Part shown: positions 12,471-46,613 of the stretch, in pieces | Layout: each line of letters begins with the position of its first letter | How positions within the stretch are numbered: the stretch's first letter is position 1 | DNA from: Chloroflexota bacterium | Lineage (GTDB): Bacteria > Chloroflexota > Dehalococcoidia > UBA2247 > RBG-13-53-26 | Assembly: GCA_016876035.1 (NCBI GenBank) | Contig: VGOE01000010.1 | Span: forward strand, 1 to 46,613 | Length of the DNA stretch: 46,613 nt | Reading direction: 5' to 3' | Notes under the pieces: generated by a model | What the model saw: only the letters and a program-made list of their open reading frames with translations | What the model was told of the DNA's origin: nothing | Database searches by the model: none | Program-made: the position numbers and the translations under genes

Positions 12471-12545
12471 AGATGGTGGCAGCTACAAAAGGCATGAGTT
12501 TTAGGTTAGACTGGACAAGGAGAATAACACACCGAGGAGGTGAGA

Positions 12546-13838
12546 ATGAAGAGGCAGAAGGAGGGGATATTACCATTCAGGGTGGTGCAAAGTGATGCGC
12601 CGTTGATTGCCAGGGGTGGGTTGGCGCTGGTTTATGAGTTTGCCAGGTCGCTGAAGCTGCCGAAGGTAATAGACGAGGAATTGCCGCGGCCGGGCAGCGG
12701 TCGAGGGTATAAGCCCTCGCAGTTTGTGATGCCTTTAGTGCTGATGCTTCATGGTGGAGGGAAGAGGCTGGAGGATTTGAGGGAAGTAAAGGGGGAGAGG
12801 AGCCTTAGGGAGCTTGTGGAGATGGATGGTCTGCCAGCCTCCTGTACAGTAGGGGACTGGCTACGGAGGATGGGGGAGTCAGGGGAGGGTCTTTCGGGTC
12901 TGGGGAGGGTGAACAGGCATGTGGTGAGGGAGACAGTGAGGCGAGATGGGGGGAAAGGGTACACCCTGGATGTGGATGCCAGCGTAATAGAGGCGGAGAA
13001 GGAAGAGGCCAAGTTCACCTATAAAGGGGGCAAAGGCTACCAGCCGCAGATGGGGTTTGTGTTTGAGCTGGGGCTGATACTGGAGGACGAGTTTCGCGAG
13101 GGGAATGTGCCGGCACAAGCCGACGCAGTGGGTTTTCTGAAGAGGTGTTTCCAGACCGTGCCGGGAGGGAAGGAGATCGAGTATGTTCGGGTGGATAGTG
13201 CTTACTACCAGGCTGAGGTGATGAACCTATGCTTCACTGGGAGGAAGTGGTTCACTATCACGGCGGACAAGGATGAGGCAGTAATGGAAGCCATAAAATC
13301 GATAAGGGATTGGCGCCCCTACAACAAAGGCAGGGAGATAGGGGAAACGGTTCATACCATGAACAAGACAAAAGAAGCCTTTCGTCTGGTGGTACAGCGT
13401 TGGCCGAAGCTACAGGCGGAGCTGTTCGATGCGTCACCCTACTGCTATCATGCCATAGCGACCAATAGAGAAGAGGAGGCTGAGGAGGTAGTCCGGATTC
13501 ACAACAAGAGAGGGGAATTGGAGAACTATATCAAAGAGCTCAAGAGCGGCTTTGGTATGGAATGGATGCCCTGTGGGGAAACCTACGCCAATGCGATATT
13601 CTTCAGGATAGGGGTAATAGCCTACAATCTGTTTCAGGCGATGAAGGTGTTGGCCTTACCGCCGTGGTATCGGAGTTATACTATATCGACGGTAAGGTGG
13701 AAGCTGTATGAGGTAGCTGCTGAGGTGACCAGGCATGCCCATCAGGTGCTACTGAAAGTGGCGGCCAGCCTGGAGAAGGTGCTGTTGTTTCAGAGGTTTC
13801 GCTCCAGGTGTAGGCAGTTGGCTTACGATTCGAGCTAA
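12546..13838 (+). CDS. IS1380-family DDE transposase
   Basis: Cut-and-paste transposase of the IS element. The 430-residue protein carries the family pattern: N-terminal GGLALVYEFARSL, first catalytic Asp in LDVDASVIEAEK, second in VRVDSAYYQAEV, and the C-terminal Glu motif in NKRGELENYIKELKSGFG, followed by the conserved ANAIFFRIGVIAYNLFQAMK. I choose the ATG at 12546, which has GAGGAGG five bases upstream, over the in-frame GTG six bases earlier. The frame is intact with no missing core motif, so the enzyme is probably functional. Codon use is G-rich and lacks the variety of the flanking genes, consistent with acquired DNA. Confidence 0.93.
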   Translation: MKRQKEGILPFRVVQSDAPLIARGGLALVYEFARSLKLPKVIDEELPRPGSGRGYKPSQFVMPLVLMLHGGGKRLEDLREVKGERSLRELVEMDGLPASCTVGDWLRRMGESGEGLSGLGRVNRHVVRETVRRDGGKGYTLDVDASVIEAEKEEAKFTYKGGKGYQPQMGFVFELGLILEDEFREGNVPAQADAVGFLKRCFQTVPGGKEIEYVRVDSAYYQAEVMNLCFTGRKWFTITADKDEAVMEAIKSIRDWRPYNKGREIGETVHTMNKTKEAFRLVVQRWPKLQAELFDASPYCYHAIATNREEEAEEVVRIHNKRGELENYIKELKSGFGMEWMPCGETYANAIFFRIGVIAYNLFQAMKVLALPPWYRSYTISTVRWKLYEVAAEVTRHAHQVLLKVAASLEKVLLFQRFRSRCRQLAYDSS

Positions 13839-41008: not shown

Positions 41009-42100
41009 ATGACTTATAGGATAACACTGATCCCAGGCGATGGCATCGGGCCGGAAGTTACCGAAGCTACCACCAGAGCGCTGGAGGCTACCGGAGTCAG
41101 TGTAGAGTGGGATGTGGTTCAAATCGGCCAGGTGGCGGAACAAGAACTGAAAACGCCGCTTCCTGATGCTGTGCTCGAATCTATCAGGAAGAACAAGGTT
41201 GCCCTGAAAGGGCCGGTGACCACGCAAGTGGGCTTCGGCTTCAGGAGCGTCAATGTAGCTCTGCGGAAGGCGTTAGATCTCTATGCCTGTGTGCGACCCT
41301 GCAAGACCTATCCTGGGGCACCTTCACCCTACGAGAATGTTGATGTTGTTATCATCAGGGAGAACATCGAAGACCTTTACAGCGGCATCGAGTTCGAGAA
41401 AGGGACGCTGGAAGCAGCAAATCAAATAGAGTTCATATTGGAAACCAAGGGTGAATCGGTCAGGCAAGACTCAGGGCTTAGCATGAAGATAATCTCTGAA
41501 ATGCGCAGCCGGAGAATCGTCAAGTTCGCCTTTGAATATGCTCGTGCTAATCACTTAACAAAGGTGACAGCGGTGCACAAAGCCAACATTTTGAAATTCT
41601 CTGATGGGCTGTTCCTCTCTGTTGCTCGAGAGATGGCCAAAGAATACCCTGACATCGAGTTCGATGATAAGCTGGCGGATAACATGAATATGCAGTTGGT
41701 GCGGAGGCCCCAGCAATTCAATGTAATAGTAGCACCGAACCTTTACGGCGATCTGCTTTCCGATCTTTGTGCCGGCCTGATTGGAGGACTGGGGTTAGCT
41801 CCTGGGGCAAATTTTGGGGATGATATCGCTGTGTTTGAGGCTGTACATGGCAGTGCCCCCAAATACGCTGGGCAGAATAAATCCAATCCCATGGCCATGA
41901 TGCTCTCAGGGGCAATGATGTTGCGCCATCTTGGTGAGCAGGCAAGAGCCCAGATGTTGGAGCAAGCAATAGCCGAAGTCATTGCGGAGGGCAAGAACGT
42001 TACCTATGACCTCAAACCAGAGGAACCCCAAACGGCAGTGGGCACTTCGCAGGTGGCTGATGCGGTAATTGAGAAACTCCGGCGCTTCAGGCGAGCCTAG
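41009..42100 (+). CDS. icd: Isocitrate dehydrogenase
   Basis: A 363-residue beta-decarboxylating dehydrogenase. The substrate loop is FRSVNVALRKALDLYACVRP: Ser80, Asn82 and Arg86 occupy the spacing of Ser113, Asn115 and Arg119 that bind isocitrate in E. coli Icd, and differ from the Leu/Glu pattern of isopropylmalate dehydrogenases and the pattern of homoisocitrate dehydrogenases. Other blocks: IIRENIEDLYSGIEF, VTAVHKANILKFSDGLFL and APNLYGDLLSDLCAGLIGGL. The cofactor loop HGSAPKYAGQNKSNP has Lys-Tyr as in NADP-specific E. coli Icd (Lys344, Tyr345), but Arg395 there is Pro here, so NADP use is only suggested. It would make 2-oxoglutarate for glutamate synthesis. Confidence 0.88.
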   Translation: MTYRITLIPGDGIGPEVTEATTRALEATGVSVEWDVVQIGQVAEQELKTPLPDAVLESIRKNKVALKGPVTTQVGFGFRSVNVALRKALDLYACVRPCKTYPGAPSPYENVDVVIIRENIEDLYSGIEFEKGTLEAANQIEFILETKGESVRQDSGLSMKIISEMRSRRIVKFAFEYARANHLTKVTAVHKANILKFSDGLFLSVAREMAKEYPDIEFDDKLADNMNMQLVRRPQQFNVIVAPNLYGDLLSDLCAGLIGGLGLAPGANFGDDIAVFEAVHGSAPKYAGQNKSNPMAMMLSGAMMLRHLGEQARAQMLEQAIAEVIAEGKNVTYDLKPEEPQTAVGTSQVADAVIEKLRRFRRA

Positions 42101-42217
42101 CGGCTGACTCGTGCATAAGGAAACCGCTATTGTGATACCGTTATCAAGTGTATTGTACGTCATATTTTTGAGACCGCAGCTATAAACTGCTGGTTGGTGA
42201 GCACTCAGGAGGGATTG

Positions 42218-43468
42218 ATGGGTAAGATTCATATCATCGATGTAACCAATAGAGACGGTGTTCAGACTGCAAAGCTAGGGCTGTCCAAGCTCGAGAAGAC
42301 CATGGTAAATCTTTACCTTAATGAAATAGGTGTCTTCCAATCGGAATTCGGTTTTCCCACCACGCGCCATGAGAGGTACTATCTTCAAGCCAATCTTGAG
42401 TTGGCTGAAATGGGGGTTCTGCAACGCACTCGATTGGCAGGATGGGTGAGGGCCATGGCTGAGGATGTGGATCTGACGTTCAAGCGAGTCCCCAAAATAA
42501 GGCATATCAATCTCTCCATATCCACATCAGACCAGATGATTTCTGGCAAGTTCCTGGGTAAGAAAACGAGGGAAGACATCACTCGCATGATGGTAGAAGC
42601 GGTGGAAGCAGCCAAATCGCACAAAGCAGAATCCATAGGGGTGAACGCCGAGGATGCTTCCCGGACGGATCTGGACTTCCTTGTTAGATTTGGTTTGGCA
42701 GCCAAGCAACACGGAGCCGATAGGTTGAGGTACTGTGATACTCTGGGTTATGACAGCCCGTTTACCATTTACGAAACTGCAAGAATACTGGCGGAGAATA
42801 CAGGGATGCCGATTGAGCTTCACTGCCACGGCGATTTAGGTATGGCCGTGGCTAACTCGATAGCCGGAGCCAAAGGGGCCATAGATGGTGGGCAAGACGC
42901 CTACATCAACACGACGATCAATGGAATAGGTGAAAGAGCAGGCAATGCTGATCTGATCGCAGTGGTTCTGGCTGTTACCAAATCCAAGGGATTCTCCCAG
43001 CAATATCAGCTTGCTGACCCGATCGATCTATCGAAATCGTGGAAGATAGCCAAGTTCGCCAGCTATGCTTTTGGGGTCCCCATTCCGATCAATCAGCCAG
43101 GGGTGGGAGCTAATGCTTTCGCTCATGCTTCTGGAATTCATGCTGACGGCGTTTTGAAGGACGCCAGTAACTATGAACTCTATGACTACCGGGAACTCGG
43201 AAGAGGTGACCCTGAGTTTGTGGAAACCGGCAGGGAGATATGCACTGGGGAGTACAGCGGCATATCGGGCTTCAGTCATGTGATGGGGAAAATAGAAGTA
43301 TGCTTTGCTGGCTCCGAGGAGGCCCAGGAAGTTCTGGAGCTGGCAAGATATGCCAATGTGCAAGCTCAGAAACCCCTTGTTGAAGACGAGCTATTGTTCA
43401 TCGCCAAGTATCCAGCGATTGCGAAGAAACTGCTGACACTTAGGCCTCTTGATCAGGACGATCAATAA
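42218..43468 (+). CDS. Re-citrate synthase/homocitrate synthase family enzyme
   Basis: A 416-residue HMGL-like TIM-barrel acyltransferase of the isopropylmalate/homocitrate/Re-citrate synthase family. The metal-binding start is IIDVTNRDGVQTAKLG (Asp and Arg), the barrel holds ELHCHGDLGMAVANSIAGAK with the metal HxH pair and INGIGERAGNADL, and the flap is GVGANAFAHASGIHADGVLK. The C-terminal leucine-sensing domain is absent, so it is not a regulated isopropylmalate synthase. Set beside aconitase subunits and isocitrate dehydrogenase, a Re-citrate synthase role is favoured; this stereotype is established in Clostridium kluyveri and Dehalococcoides, which lack the usual Si-enzyme. AGGAGGG precedes ATG 42218. 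A 117-base gap follows icd. Confidence 0.85.
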   Translation: MGKIHIIDVTNRDGVQTAKLGLSKLEKTMVNLYLNEIGVFQSEFGFPTTRHERYYLQANLELAEMGVLQRTRLAGWVRAMAEDVDLTFKRVPKIRHINLSISTSDQMISGKFLGKKTREDITRMMVEAVEAAKSHKAESIGVNAEDASRTDLDFLVRFGLAAKQHGADRLRYCDTLGYDSPFTIYETARILAENTGMPIELHCHGDLGMAVANSIAGAKGAIDGGQDAYINTTINGIGERAGNADLIAVVLAVTKSKGFSQQYQLADPIDLSKSWKIAKFASYAFGVPIPINQPGVGANAFAHASGIHADGVLKDASNYELYDYRELGRGDPEFVETGREICTGEYSGISGFSHVMGKIEVCFAGSEEAQEVLELARYANVQAQKPLVEDELLFIAKYPAIAKKLLTLRPLDQDDQ

Positions 43469-43472
43469 TGAT

Positions 43473-43502
43473 TGGTTACCGCAGCTATCTGCGTGATAAC
43501 CA
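43473..43502 (+). terminator. Stem-loop after the citrate synthase-family gene
   Basis: TGGTTA-CGCAG pairs with CTGCG-TAACCA around a four-base loop, with a small bulge, starting four bases after the stop. A few bases beyond lies GGTTTTCGG rather than a true T tract, so termination would be partial or factor-assisted. Confidence 0.45.
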
Positions 43503-43629
43503 GCCAAGGTCGGGTTTTCGGGAAAAGGTTTACGCATTGTGGATTCCCAGCCTGTCCGAAAAGTCCGTGGTCTAGCTTTGGAACAGCCAGTTCTTTAGCT
43601 TTGGCTCCTTCAGTTTTCGGACGGCCTGA

Positions 43630-44373
43630 ATCGGCCAGCGGCTTGACCAGAGCGGCCAGTACTTTTATAATGCCAGGTACTACGACGCCTCGATCGGGAG
43701 GTTTATCAGTGCCGACAGCATAGTCCCTGATCCTGCCGATCCGCAGAACCTTAACAGGTATACATACTGCCTCAACAACCCGCTCAAATACATCGACCCT
43801 ACCGGGGAGTGGCCAGAGTGGACTAAGAAGATTGGCCGCGCGGCAAAAAAGGCTGGAAAGGCGGTTGTTAAGGCTGGAAAGGCGGTTGGTAAAGCGGTAG
43901 TCGGCGCAGCCACATTCGCGACGGAAATAGCAGTAAAAGTTGCAGGCCCTGTATTAGACTTCCTGGAACCTCTCGACAAGGTTCTCACGGCTGTTCCAGA
44001 TTTCATCATAAACAATACGGCAGTCCCTTTGCTCAACCTGACTGGTGCAGGAATTAATAGAATGGACCTGCATCTGACGCGGGGTTATCTGGGGATAGGC
44101 ATAAGAGACGGAGGATGGATGGCTAGCATGCTGGACTTTGTCACCGGAGGTAAGACTGGCTTAACTTTGCCTGCTGGCTTTGGTAGCGTCGTAGTCATCA
44201 ATGAAGACAAAGCCGGAAAGTATCTACCCACGATAGTTAAACACGAGGAAGTTCATGTAATTCAACAACGTACCTTAGGCCCATTCTTCCCTCCACTATA
44301 TGGCCTAGGTCACCTGTTGTATGGCTATGATAACAATCCGCTAGAAGTACAAGCAAAAAAACATCAACAATAA
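43630..44373 (+). pseudogene. 5'-truncated RHS-repeat protein tail with HExxH toxin-like domain
   Basis: The frame opens after a stop at 43627-43629 and starts directly with the RHS-repeat-associated core: GQYFYNARYYDASIGRFISA, DPADPQNLNRYTYCLNNPL, KYIDPTG. A basic Ala/Lys/Val-rich linker follows, then a C-terminal domain whose end has VKHEEVHVIQQRTLGPFF and NPLEVQAKKHQQ. HEEVH (44242-44256) fits the zinc-metallopeptidase HExxH, with Glu in LEVQA as a possible third ligand, as in HE.xH..Q...LGP domains at RHS tails and in DUF4157. In polymorphic toxins this position holds the toxin tip. There is no start codon, signal or repeat body upstream, so it is a displaced tail or pseudogene unless an internal start is used. 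Confidence 0.82.
43632..43806 (+). repeat. RHS-core direct repeat, copy A
   Basis: About 175 bases, roughly 95% or more identical by eye to 45458-45632 (offset 1826, no gaps). Both copies begin at the same base, CGGCCAGCGGCTTGACCAGA, and diverge after the (D)PTG/(D)PSG codons. Confidence 0.85.
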
Positions 44374-44413
44374 GGACCTGCCATTCTTCTTCGGATGAAA
44401 GGAGGTGCTGTAC

Positions 44414-44854
44414 ATGATTACCTGGCCCTGGCAGGTTTGTAAGGACCATTCATTACGATGGTATGACTGGCGAAAACTCAAGATGGCAGGCCTCGTAATC
44501 GCCATAAGTGTGGTTCTTGCAGTAGTAGCCGTAGCTTGTCTAGGATCTGCCCGACTGACAGTTGAGAACCAGATGCCCGTCGATCTCACCATCATCCACG
44601 AACCATACGGAAGGGACGGTAAGCTATCGGATGTGGCGGTGGTTTTAGGCATGGTTCCCGCAGGACAGACTGTAAAACTAGACGAACCGATTGTTCTCAG
44701 CGAAGGTACTGCGGGGTGGACAGTCGTGCTGAAAGCCGAGGATCCATCAGGACAGGTTATCTGGCAGAGAAGCTGGTCTTTCAAGGAATTCCGTGAGCTG
44801 AAAAAAGTGGGTTGGAAAATCACCATTCCGCCATTAACCGATTCAGCAGGGTAG
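44414..44854 (+). CDS. Membrane-anchored or lipoprotein-like small protein, paralogue A (candidate immunity protein)
   Basis: A 146-residue protein. After about 20 polar residues comes a hydrophobic segment MAGLVIAISVVLAVVAVAC, which could be a signal anchor or end in a lipobox-like Cys. The exported part is a compact beta-rich domain: ARLTVENQMPVDLTIIHEPY, VLGMVPAGQTVKLDEPIVLS and the highly conserved end VVLKAEDPSGQVIWQRSWSF. GGAGGTG is upstream of the ATG at 44414. It lies 40 bases after the RHS/HExxH tail and is paralogous to the gene at 44981. In polymorphic-toxin loci the gene right after the toxin usually encodes immunity, so that is the working guess; the family is not recognised. The stop codon sits inside the palindromic element that follows. 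Confidence 0.72.
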   Translation: MITWPWQVCKDHSLRWYDWRKLKMAGLVIAISVVLAVVAVACLGSARLTVENQMPVDLTIIHEPYGRDGKLSDVAVVLGMVPAGQTVKLDEPIVLSEGTAGWTVVLKAEDPSGQVIWQRSWSFKEFRELKKVGWKITIPPLTDSAG

Positions 44855-44965
44855 GGTGGGCATGGTTTCATGGTGAGTGTGAAGTCCCTCTGAGGCGGAC
44901 GCAACCCACCACATCCGTTCCTGACTGGCAGTGGGTTGCACTTCATCCCACCCACCCTACTGCTG
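44844..44965. repeat. Small palindromic (MITE-like) element between the paralogues
   Basis: About 122 bases with inverted ends: CAGCAGGGTAGGGTGGG on the left and CCCACCCACCCTACTGCTG on the right. An inner perfect 9-bp hairpin is formed by GCAACCCAC (44901-44909) and GTGGGTTGC (44931-44939). The left end supplies the stop codon of paralogue A, giving it a different C-terminus from paralogue B, as expected if the element inserted there. A related GTAGGGTGGGC occurs at 45434-45444. Confidence 0.6.
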
Positions 44966-44980
44966 GTGGAGATGTTATTC

Positions 44981-45406
44981 ATGATCACACGGCCCTGGCA
45001 GGTTTATAAGAACCAATTGTCACAACGGCACGACTGGCGAAAACTCAAGATGGCAGCCCTTGTTATCTTGGCCATAACTATGATCCTCGCAGGCAGTGCT
45101 TGTCAAGAATCTGTCCGACTGACAGTTGAGAATCAGACATCCATCGATCTCACCATCATGCACGAGGCATACGAAAAGGATGGCAAAACATTCGACCGTG
45201 TATCCTTGGGCATGGTTCCCGCAGGACAGACTGTGAAACTACATCAATGGATTACTCTCACACGAAGTACCCTGGGATGGACAGTCGTGCTGAAAGCTGA
45301 GGATCCATCAGGACAGGTTATCTGGCAGAGAAGCTGGTCTTTCAAGGAATTCCTTGAGCTGAAAAAAGTGGGTTGGAAAATCACCATTTCCCCTGAAAGC
45401 GATTAG
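44981..45406 (+). CDS. Membrane-anchored or lipoprotein-like small protein, paralogue B
   Basis: A 141-residue paralogue of the preceding gene with the same plan: MITRPWQVYKNQ, a hydrophobic segment MAALVILAITMILAGSAC, then VRLTVENQTSIDLTIMHEAY, SLGMVPAGQTVKLHQWITLT and the shared end VVLKAEDPSGQVIWQRSWSF. The last 45 residues are nearly identical to paralogue A, while the middle is divergent, a pattern of recent duplication plus selection or recombination. I start it at 44981 to match A; an ATG nine bases earlier is possible. It precedes the second RHS-core copy. Confidence 0.7.
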   Translation: MITRPWQVYKNQLSQRHDWRKLKMAALVILAITMILAGSACQESVRLTVENQTSIDLTIMHEAYEKDGKTFDRVSLGMVPAGQTVKLHQWITLTRSTLGWTVVLKAEDPSGQVIWQRSWSFKEFLELKKVGWKITISPESD

Positions 45407-45437
45407 CTCCATCCCCCGTAGCCGCGTAACGGAGTAG

Positions 45438-45680
45438 GGTGGGCTCGGCCCACCAACCGGCCAGCGGCTTGACCAGAGCGGCCTTTATTTCTATAATGCC
45501 AGGTACTACGATGCCTCGATCGGGAGGTTTATCAGTGCCGACAGCATAGTCCCTGATCCTGCCGATCCGCAGAACCTTAACAGGTATACATACTGCCTCA
45601 ACAACCCGCTCAAATACACCGACCCCAGCGGGCACTTCTTCTTCGCCATCATCCTTCATGGAAGATCTTCCCCGGGTTGA
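45438..45680 (+). pseudogene. Second RHS-core tail fragment, lacking its toxin domain
   Basis: Reads PTGQRLDQSGLYFYNARYYD, continues through the same GRFISADSIVPDPADPQNLN block as the first copy, and ends KYTDPSGHFFF before running out within the 3' end of the oppositely oriented oxidase gene. No start codon or repeat body lies upstream, and no C-terminal domain follows, so it is a non-functional relic. Confidence 0.85.
45458..45632 (+). repeat. RHS-core direct repeat, copy B
   Basis: Matches 43632-43806 with an offset of 1826 and about 95% or more identity by eye. The equal 5' boundaries suggest duplication of one ancestral break point rather than two independent truncations. Confidence 0.85.
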
Positions 45681-46486
45681 GGATGTGGTGGGGGTCGAAA
45701 GCCCTCTTAAGCCTCATCATCAGCTCTATCTGCTCCCGGCTCATGGCTATGCTCAGATATCTGGTTTTCTCAAAACCAAGGCCATGTTCGCCTGAGATGG
45801 TACCGCCCAGGGAGACCCCTGCCCGGTACACCTCCTCCATCACCAGGGGCAGCTTGGCTTCCCATTCCACTCTGTCCATTCCCATACCCATAGGGTGCAG
45901 GTGCACATTGCCGTCGCCGGCATGACCGGTGGCCACGATAGGCATCCCACAGCGCCGCGATATATCCTTGACCATGGCAACAAACTCGGCTATCTGGCTG
46001 CGGGGAACCACAACGTCCAGAACCTCGATAGGGCCGCTTTGCTTCAAGGCAGGATACAATTTCTCCCGGGCTTCCAACAGGCCCCTTCTTGCTCGCTCTC
46101 CAGGCGGAAGGTACACATCTTCGGCACCGTTTCTGGTGCACACTTCAGCCACACAATTGGCAGCCCGGTAAACCTCGTCCTGGGAATTCCCCTCCAGGAT
46201 TCCCAGCAGAAAGGCGTCGTGATCATGGAAAGGGATCTCCCGATCGAGATATTTTTCAACTATGTTCACTGCATCCTTTTCCAGGAACTCCAACCCTGCG
46301 ACGAGCGCCCCCTCCTTCAGAATCTCGGGAACCGCTCTAATCGCCTGCCGCAGTCCCGGAAAGGGGATGAAAAGAACCTCTCGCCACCCTGGCGGTGTAA
46401 TAAGACGCAGAGTTACCTCAGTTATGACTCCCAGGGTACCCTCGGAACCGACCAGGAGTTGGGTCAGGTCATAGGCAGTTGAGCAC
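45649..46486 (-). pseudogene. FAD-linked oxidase (GlcD-like), truncated at its 5' end
   Basis: The C-terminal two-thirds of a glycolate/lactate-oxidase-type flavoprotein. It starts with AYDLTQLLVGSEGTLGVITE, the end of the FAD-binding PCMH domain, and runs through the FAD-oxidase C-terminal domain: IVATGHAGDGNVHLHPMGMG, GTISGEHGLGFEKTRYL and the usual end LNPGKIFHEG. The reading frame meets a stop at 46489-46491 immediately after homology ends, and the missing first part should continue GxxVxxxGYDLT on the other side. The break coincides with the start of an IS21-like terminus, so the gene was probably split by insertion. Its 3' end also overlaps the RHS relic by 32 bases. Confidence 0.85.
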
Positions 46487-46613
46487 TGTTAGGAATTTTT
46501 GAAAAGTGAACTCCTTTACGATTCAAAAGTGAACTCTAGGGAACTCAGCCAGAGGATAGTCAAGAGAGTGGACCATCTGGTTGTTCCACCATAATCGGAC
46601 ATGCAAAACGCCT
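46487..46613. mobile_element. Probable terminus of an IS21-family element (partial)
   Basis: Begins TGTTAGGAATTTTTGAAAAG and contains two copies of AAAAGTGAACTC (46502 and 46526, 24 bases apart). A TGT-type end with short repeated motifs is how IS21-type elements look. It starts exactly where the FAD-oxidase frame is broken and continues past the window edge, so no transposase or second end can be seen. Confidence 0.5.

Follow-up and report, generated by a model that had tools for sequence, protein, structure and literature searches.

Tpe1 and VgrG2b, which are annotated with DUF4157, are experimentally proven periplasmic toxins, and the associated immunity proteins are periplasmic, membrane-anchored or lipoproteins (PMC6899460). 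DUF4157 proteins with protective downstream partners are also described in a haloarchaeon (PMC11566945). The PVC-metallopeptidase domain is characterised by the signature HExxHxxQ-E; its C-terminal versions are probably toxins, and no immunity protein is listed for it (PMC3482391). In the same 2012 collection, Imm65, paired with Tox-JAB-1, is the sole lipobox-anchored immunity protein (PMC3482391). Orphan rhs-CT/rhsI modules represent a further related system. They consist of a cut core tail, a tip and an immunity gene, are displaced and silent, and keep their core homology for recombination (PMC4927057). Immunity genes that are kept alone as orphans are likewise a known outcome (PMC10539506).

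The locus reported here is found in a Chloroflexota bacterium (assembly GCA_016876035.1, contig VGOE01000010.1; 159 contigs, 97.7% completeness), labelled G000. The window, i.e. the whole stretch of DNA that was analysed, comprises 46,613 nt. The locus is probably a displaced orphan RHS toxin-immunity remnant, with a silent tip and lipoproteins retained as orphan immunity. By analogy with Tpe1-Tpi1 and VgrG2b-PA0261, it would combine a DUF4157-type toxin domain, a small gene directly downstream and an extracytoplasmic partner; the partners are likened by position and location. The tip profile here has no PDB match and the lipoprotein family no Pfam match. The carriers differ, being T6SS for Tpe1-Tpi1 and an RHS core in Chloroflexota here, and no VgrG, PAAR or T6SS context was noticed on reading the window and the related loci. 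Imm65 shares the lipobox anchor with the candidates described here, whereas its partner is a JAB peptidase, unlike the predicted zincin of this locus, which sets the two apart by description.

Organisation of the locus

The features of the locus are as follows, in the order of their coordinates in the window.

43545-43629, no strand: hairpin-forming repeat of 85 bp, adjoining RHS tail copy 1 (from sequence and a second genomic copy)
43629-43806, plus strand: RHS core tail copy 1, ending in DPTG, headless (repeat comparison, TIGR03696)
43813-44373, plus strand: C-terminal tip, predicted zincin of the eCIS_core/DUF4157 kind (alignment; relatives match PF13699)
44062-44373, plus strand: putative free tip of ~103 aa from a possible internal start (AGGA, 9-nt spacer, ATG)
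44414-44854, plus strand: lipoprotein paralogue 1, immunity candidate, with the Cys codon of the lipobox at 44537-44539
44855-44963, no strand: inserted palindromic repeat GTAGGGTGGG...CCCACCCTAC, between the lipoprotein paralogues (from sequence)
44981-45406, plus strand: lipoprotein paralogue 2, immunity candidate, with the Cys codon of the lipobox at 45101-45103 and a beta-sandwich model
45434-45457, no strand: short palindrome GTAGGGTGGGCTCGGCCCACCAAC, adjoining RHS tail copy 2 (from sequence)
45458-45632, plus strand: RHS core tail copy 2, ending in DPSG (repeat comparison, TIGR03696)
45633-45680, plus strand: cut-off tip of tail copy 2, with 24 nt in common with the tip on contig C5, then the 3' end of the FAD-oxidase gene
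45649-46293, minus strand: FAD-oxidase ORF, neighbour of tail copy 2

The initial annotation described a decayed locus, in which two RHS-core tails start at the identical base, only the first continues into a domain with HEEVH, LGPFF and NPLEVQA, and two paralogous exported proteins with a near-identical C-terminal end lie between them. All of these points were confirmed. The tails form a direct repeat of 178 nt (43629-43806 and 45455-45632) with 95% identity, and both are RHS core ends according to TIGR03696 (E 2.5e-17 for copy 1 and 1.6e-19 for copy 2), covering model positions 20/21 to 76. They begin at the same core base (CGGCCAGCGGCTTGAC), and their sequences part exactly at the core/tip junction, DPTG or DPSG. 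This agrees with the general build of RHS toxin modules, in which the core ending YNARYYDPxxGRFISxD...NPLxxxDPTG precedes a variable C-terminal domain. Copy 1 leads into a tip of 186 aa. Copy 2 is followed by only 24 nt of a different tip, which match the tip of a third tail in the genome (G000:C5:24839-25016), and then ends. This third tail also begins at the same base as both window tails. The tail-tip frame of copy 1 has two in-frame stops just upstream, and no in-frame ATG, GTG or TTG was found in it before 44029.

The TIGR03696 search of this 97.7%-complete genome found exactly three RHS core ends, each without the first 19-20 model positions, and no full-length RHS gene. Because the genome has only these three headless core ends, the window copy is a remnant and not a complete RHS toxin, in which a full-length shell encapsulates the tip. 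A startless core fragment is joined to a tip and an adjacent immunity candidate, the composition of an orphan rhs-CT/immunity module, and the tip ORF of the window is headless and probably silent. The classical layout of such modules, a full RHS gene followed by displaced tails, is seen in the related genome G280. G000 deviates from it in having no full-length RHS gene and in the three tails sharing one 5' break beside palindromic repeats.

The tip domain

HExxHxxQ is present in the window tip as HEEVHVIQ at 44242-44265 (HEEVH at 44242-44256), with LGPFF and NPLEVQA (44335-44355) further downstream. The putative third zinc ligand is the Glu at 44344-44346 within NPLEVQA. The family eCIS_core/DUF4157 (PF13699), which we take to be the same domain as the PVC-metallopeptidase, shares HExxHxxQ with a downstream Glu. 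Because the window tip is too divergent, it has no match to PF13699 at E<=10 and does not reach the gathering score. Two other tips do match this family, namely those of G024 (1.2e-8, over the cutoff) and G507 (2.7e-4, just under it). In the alignment of the tips, HExxHxxQ is shared, with HExxGH as a variant in G410, and a downstream NPxE is present in most. As judged from sequence, the tips are distantly related to the eCIS_core/DUF4157 metallopeptidase, with one clear and one borderline Pfam match. The original assignment as an apparent zinc peptidase is supported by motif and by the PF13699 matches of the two other tips; the AF2 model of the window tip is unusable (mean pLDDT 46), and the PDB profile search with the tip profile was empty.

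Neither the window tip nor the two paralogues gave a significant match in Pfam and NCBIfam beyond the RHS core. The tips resemble Tox-MPTase1-5 in being HExxH zincin-type domains on RHS carriers, but none of those scanned matched the Tox-MPTase Pfam models. For the Tox-MPTase families, too, the 2012 table gives no immunity (PMC3482391). A single-sequence search with the tip in 393 genomes of the class returned only the self-match. Plasmid tblastn and a scan of the genome contigs with the tip yielded no relative, and a scan of viral contigs with the tip alignment yielded zero confirmed relatives. Residues 139-184 of the tip (44227-44364) match phrog_37302, a phage protein family (98 aa) of unknown function, with 6e-5, so the core of the tip may have a phage relative that stands alone.

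An HExxH domain on an RHS protein could also be a processing peptidase that releases the cargo of the system, with the lipoprotein as its substrate or surface partner. Two tips match the Pfam family, and release is the role assigned to most eCIS_core/PVC-metallopeptidase domains (PMC3482391). PF13699 domains in such a role usually lie upstream of another toxin domain, whereas the window tip sits at the extreme C-terminus, with no cargo remaining for release. It is the C-terminal versions that Zhang et al. singled out as likely toxins (PMC3482391), and in Tpe1/VgrG2b, experiments have shown DUF4157-type domains to be toxins although they carry no other cargo (PMC6899460). In addition, a partner gene directly 3' and its tandem duplication are typical of immunity. 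A releasing peptidase is considered unlikely, and a toxin tip with its immunity protein is the preferred reading.

The lipoprotein paralogues

The first candidate immunity gene follows the tip after a gap of 40 nt. The two paralogues share 71% amino acid identity, and their near-identical C-terminal third reaches 87% nucleotide identity over 199 nt. Paralogue 1 has a strong Shine-Dalgarno sequence, AGGAGGT (~44400), before ATG 44414, and paralogue 2 has GGAG. The dN/dS between them is 0.53, with z 2.3 below neutrality, which represents a modest signal of purifying selection. Their dS falls from 0.48 in the middle to 0.15 in the last third, suggesting that the paralogues have been partly homogenised.

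An Asn, and the Cys that follows the signal helix, do not vary among the ten aligned family members. Because this Cys is invariant in the ten-member alignment, the anchored proteins are assigned as lipoproteins; they have both the signal helix and the lipobox of bacterial lipoproteins, with a residue at position -3 that is often other than the usual Leu. Protection outside the cytoplasm had been proposed on the basis of membrane anchoring. This proposal is strengthened by the invariant Cys, which goes beyond mere anchoring, and, by analogy, by the tested precedent of Tpe1-Tpi1.

AF2 modelling of three sequences predicts a seven-strand beta-sandwich for residues 42-136, with a block pLDDT of ~65 to 93. 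A Foldseek search with the lipoprotein model retrieved generic beta-sandwiches only (best E 1.3e-3, TM ~0.4) and was rejected as evidence of function. No convincing Pfam family was obtained for any lipoprotein member, and the matches to ATP1G1, Paf67 and FtsL are due to chance, mostly on the signal helix. PDB profile searches were empty or gave chance matches.

Recurrence in other Chloroflexota

The search profile for the lipoprotein was built from the two window paralogues and their first relative. The family is rare, occurring in 7/400 genomes of the phylum, and a scan of genome contigs with the lipoprotein had G280 (JACPPV010000010.1, Chloroflexi bacterium NC_groundwater_636) as its sole match. 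The lipoprotein profile, which is blind to tips, led to G280 and G410, where each lipoprotein gene lies directly 3' of an RHS fragment with an HExxH or HExxGH tip. The tip profile, which is blind to lipoproteins, led to G419, G542, G024 and G507. For the first three, the next ORF was compared with a lipoprotein HMM built without them, from tip-blind members only, and matched it in every case (G419 1.3e-3; G542 3e-10 and 6e-10; G024 1.4e-10). The next ORF of G507 encodes an anchored protein of similar size, which matches the lipoprotein family weakly.

The order of a toxin tip followed by an anchored immunity candidate, first noted in the window, is that of two unannotated families which recur in the same gene order in five further Chloroflexota RHS loci (G280, G410, G419, G542 and G024). 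In the related loci, the stop of the tip and the start of the lipoprotein adjoin or overlap, often stop-to-start. Distant relatives have the same combination of predicted protease and lipoprotein beside their weapon genes, and for this reason the lipoproteins are probably antidotes that shield the outer face of the cell.

The individual loci vary in their arrangement. G280 has a long RHS gene, behind it two displaced core tails that differ in their tips, and then the lipoprotein. Its second displaced tip contains RHELGHVTQ...LGPLYLPLY without a clear NPxE, and the frame is interrupted. The order in G410 is RHS tail, tip with HRHEIGGHVEDYDVLGPFFLPLY...NPLEVTA, lipoprotein. This tip (G410:C49, L055, 1232-1948) has HEIGGH, i.e. 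HExxGH, in place of HExxH, in an otherwise identical LGPFF-LPLY...NPLEV context; the HExxGH spacing is the one known from dipeptidyl peptidase III, family M49. G542 shows the order tip, lipoprotein, tip remnant (E 2.4e-11), lipoprotein. This independent tandem pair suggests a route by which the arrangement of the window could arise. The tip of G024 is a free-standing ORF with its own ATG inside an RHS array, unfused to a tail.

Controls and exceptions

Seven relatives of the tips that are not linked to RHS, with a profile-profile probability of 99% to the tips, served for comparison. None of the seven has the lipoprotein within ~1.5 kb on either side. A lipoprotein neighbour is present in 6/6 RHS-linked loci against 0/7 non-RHS loci (Fisher p 6e-4), a comparison in which the window, G280 and G410 depend on how the families were defined; with the weak G507 counted as a failure, the result is 6/7 (p 0.005). 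Divergence of tips and lipoproteins showed no detectable correlation (Mantel r -0.05, n=7; 0.26, p 0.2, n=6).

The chromosomal loci L066, L068, L070, L072 and L073 have no RHS gene or lipoprotein nearby. Their proteins and the tips both have HExxHxRQYExLGPxFLPxY...NPLExEA, and a Pfam scan of two of these proteins revealed no family above its cutoff.

Exceptions to the pairing exist. Three full-length lipoprotein genes, in G360, G340 and G078, have no RHS gene in their vicinity; because of these, the family is not exclusive to RHS. The initial annotation had proposed to check whether the anchored family is widespread without a link to RHS, and whether it occurs 3' of full-length RHS genes. It proved to be rare and mostly RHS-linked, with the three solitary full-length exceptions; it lies 3' of a long RHS gene and displaced tails in G280, and 3' of a full RHS gene in G612. 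In the latter (G612:C44, L099, 3300-6886), a full RHS gene with an unrelated tip is followed by a different small lipoprotein and then by the family member, ~0.9 kb 3' of the RHS gene; this order looks like an immunity array.

The solitary members, together with the clearly decayed RHS tails of the window and their position beside repeats, would fit a general, unrelated small envelope family that lies next to RHS tails by chance or hitchhiking, the tails being neutral debris. Against this, blind searches with either family repeatedly arrive at the other, and the lipoprotein is absent beside all seven non-RHS tip relatives. Moreover, the seemingly solitary G612 member is close to a full RHS gene, and a lipoprotein fragment in G419:C60 directly adjoins an RHS tail. 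Chance neighbourhood is accordingly regarded as quite improbable.

Repeats and break points

The break point shared by the tails had been interpreted as a sign of duplication or tip exchange. It marks more than tip exchange: the 3' break is ordinary tip exchange at the normal core/tip junction, and the 5' boundary coincides with two kinds of palindromes. Tail copies 2 and 3 both abut a GTAGGGTGGGC...GCCCACC palindrome, and copy 1 abuts the unrelated 85-bp hairpin, of which a second copy is located at G000:C20:32273-32357 (91% match). The 5' break is thus tied to repeats, given that all three tails have a palindromic repeat immediately before this shared base. The GTAGGGTGGGC...GCCCACC palindrome also cuts the RHS core of G002, a genome of the same family, on the 3' side of the core. 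The sites of these palindromic repeats are 43545-43629, 45434-45457, G000:C5:25016 and L060.

The idea that the tails form a mobile cassette whose left end is fixed was rejected. Because the palindromes beside the tails belong to two unrelated kinds, a single insertion unit is unsupported. The repeat between the lipoprotein paralogues has copies at 75-78% elsewhere in G000. Rfam gave no match within 42000-46613. The contig also carries an intact transposase-like ORF (12540-13838), which we take to be IS1380-like and which may have given rise to rearrangements here. Positions 46477-46613, shortly after the FAD-oxidase ORF, are repeated at the ends of at least 7 other G000 contigs; they form the margin of a mobile or repeated element with which the contig ends.

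Proposed function

If the locus is an orphan toxin-immunity remnant, a full-length RHS protein would carry the tip to a neighbouring cell and place it outside that cell's cytoplasmic membrane, where the tip would cleave or otherwise disable a target in the envelope. Being anchored on that side as well, the lipoprotein would bind and block the tip, as Tpi1 and PA0261 do for Tpe1 and VgrG2b. In G000, the toxin half would be silent for want of a start and a full-length RHS gene, and the two expressible lipoproteins would be kept as orphan immunity. The tandem lipoproteins may stem from a duplication that covered either the immunity part or the module, in the latter case with one tip lost.

It is very improbable that the tip is instead made as a free metallopeptidase of ~103 aa from ATG 44062, self-contained with the lipoproteins and independent of RHS delivery: AGGA with a 9-nt spacer precedes this ATG, in G024 the tip is encoded by a separate ORF that has its own ATG, and stand-alone tip relatives exist, yet the product would have no evident export signal while the lipoproteins are extracytoplasmic, and a short Shine-Dalgarno match is weak evidence.

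Chloroflexota are mostly monoderm. Building on the orphan toxin-immunity reading, a broader view can be put forward tentatively, and is somewhat more doubtful than not. The lipoproteins would form a new immunity family which, together with a C-terminal DUF4157-like toxin, serves RHS-delivered extracytoplasmic warfare outside Proteobacteria, with immunity outliving the silenced toxin. This view implies that the family occurs mostly in Chloroflexota RHS loci, that the toxin acts on the outer membrane face of monoderm-type cells, and that the orphan immunity is expressed.

Significance

The interpretation given in the initial annotation is largely supported, short of proof. Both the orphan RHS toxin-immunity module and the DUF4157-type toxin with envelope immunity are known already. 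Neither the immunity family nor its RHS/Chloroflexota setting seems to have been described in the libraries searched. The pair joins an undescribed lipoprotein family to a family of tips that have diverged too far for most library models, and it provides a toxin-immunity hypothesis that can be tested directly in Chloroflexota, where few antagonism systems have been studied. If true, the combination of a DUF4157-type metallopeptidase with extracytoplasmic immunity would extend beyond the T6SS effectors of Proteobacteria and take in RHS carriers, and the pair would offer a sequence handle for naming "hypothetical lipoproteins" next to RHS genes.
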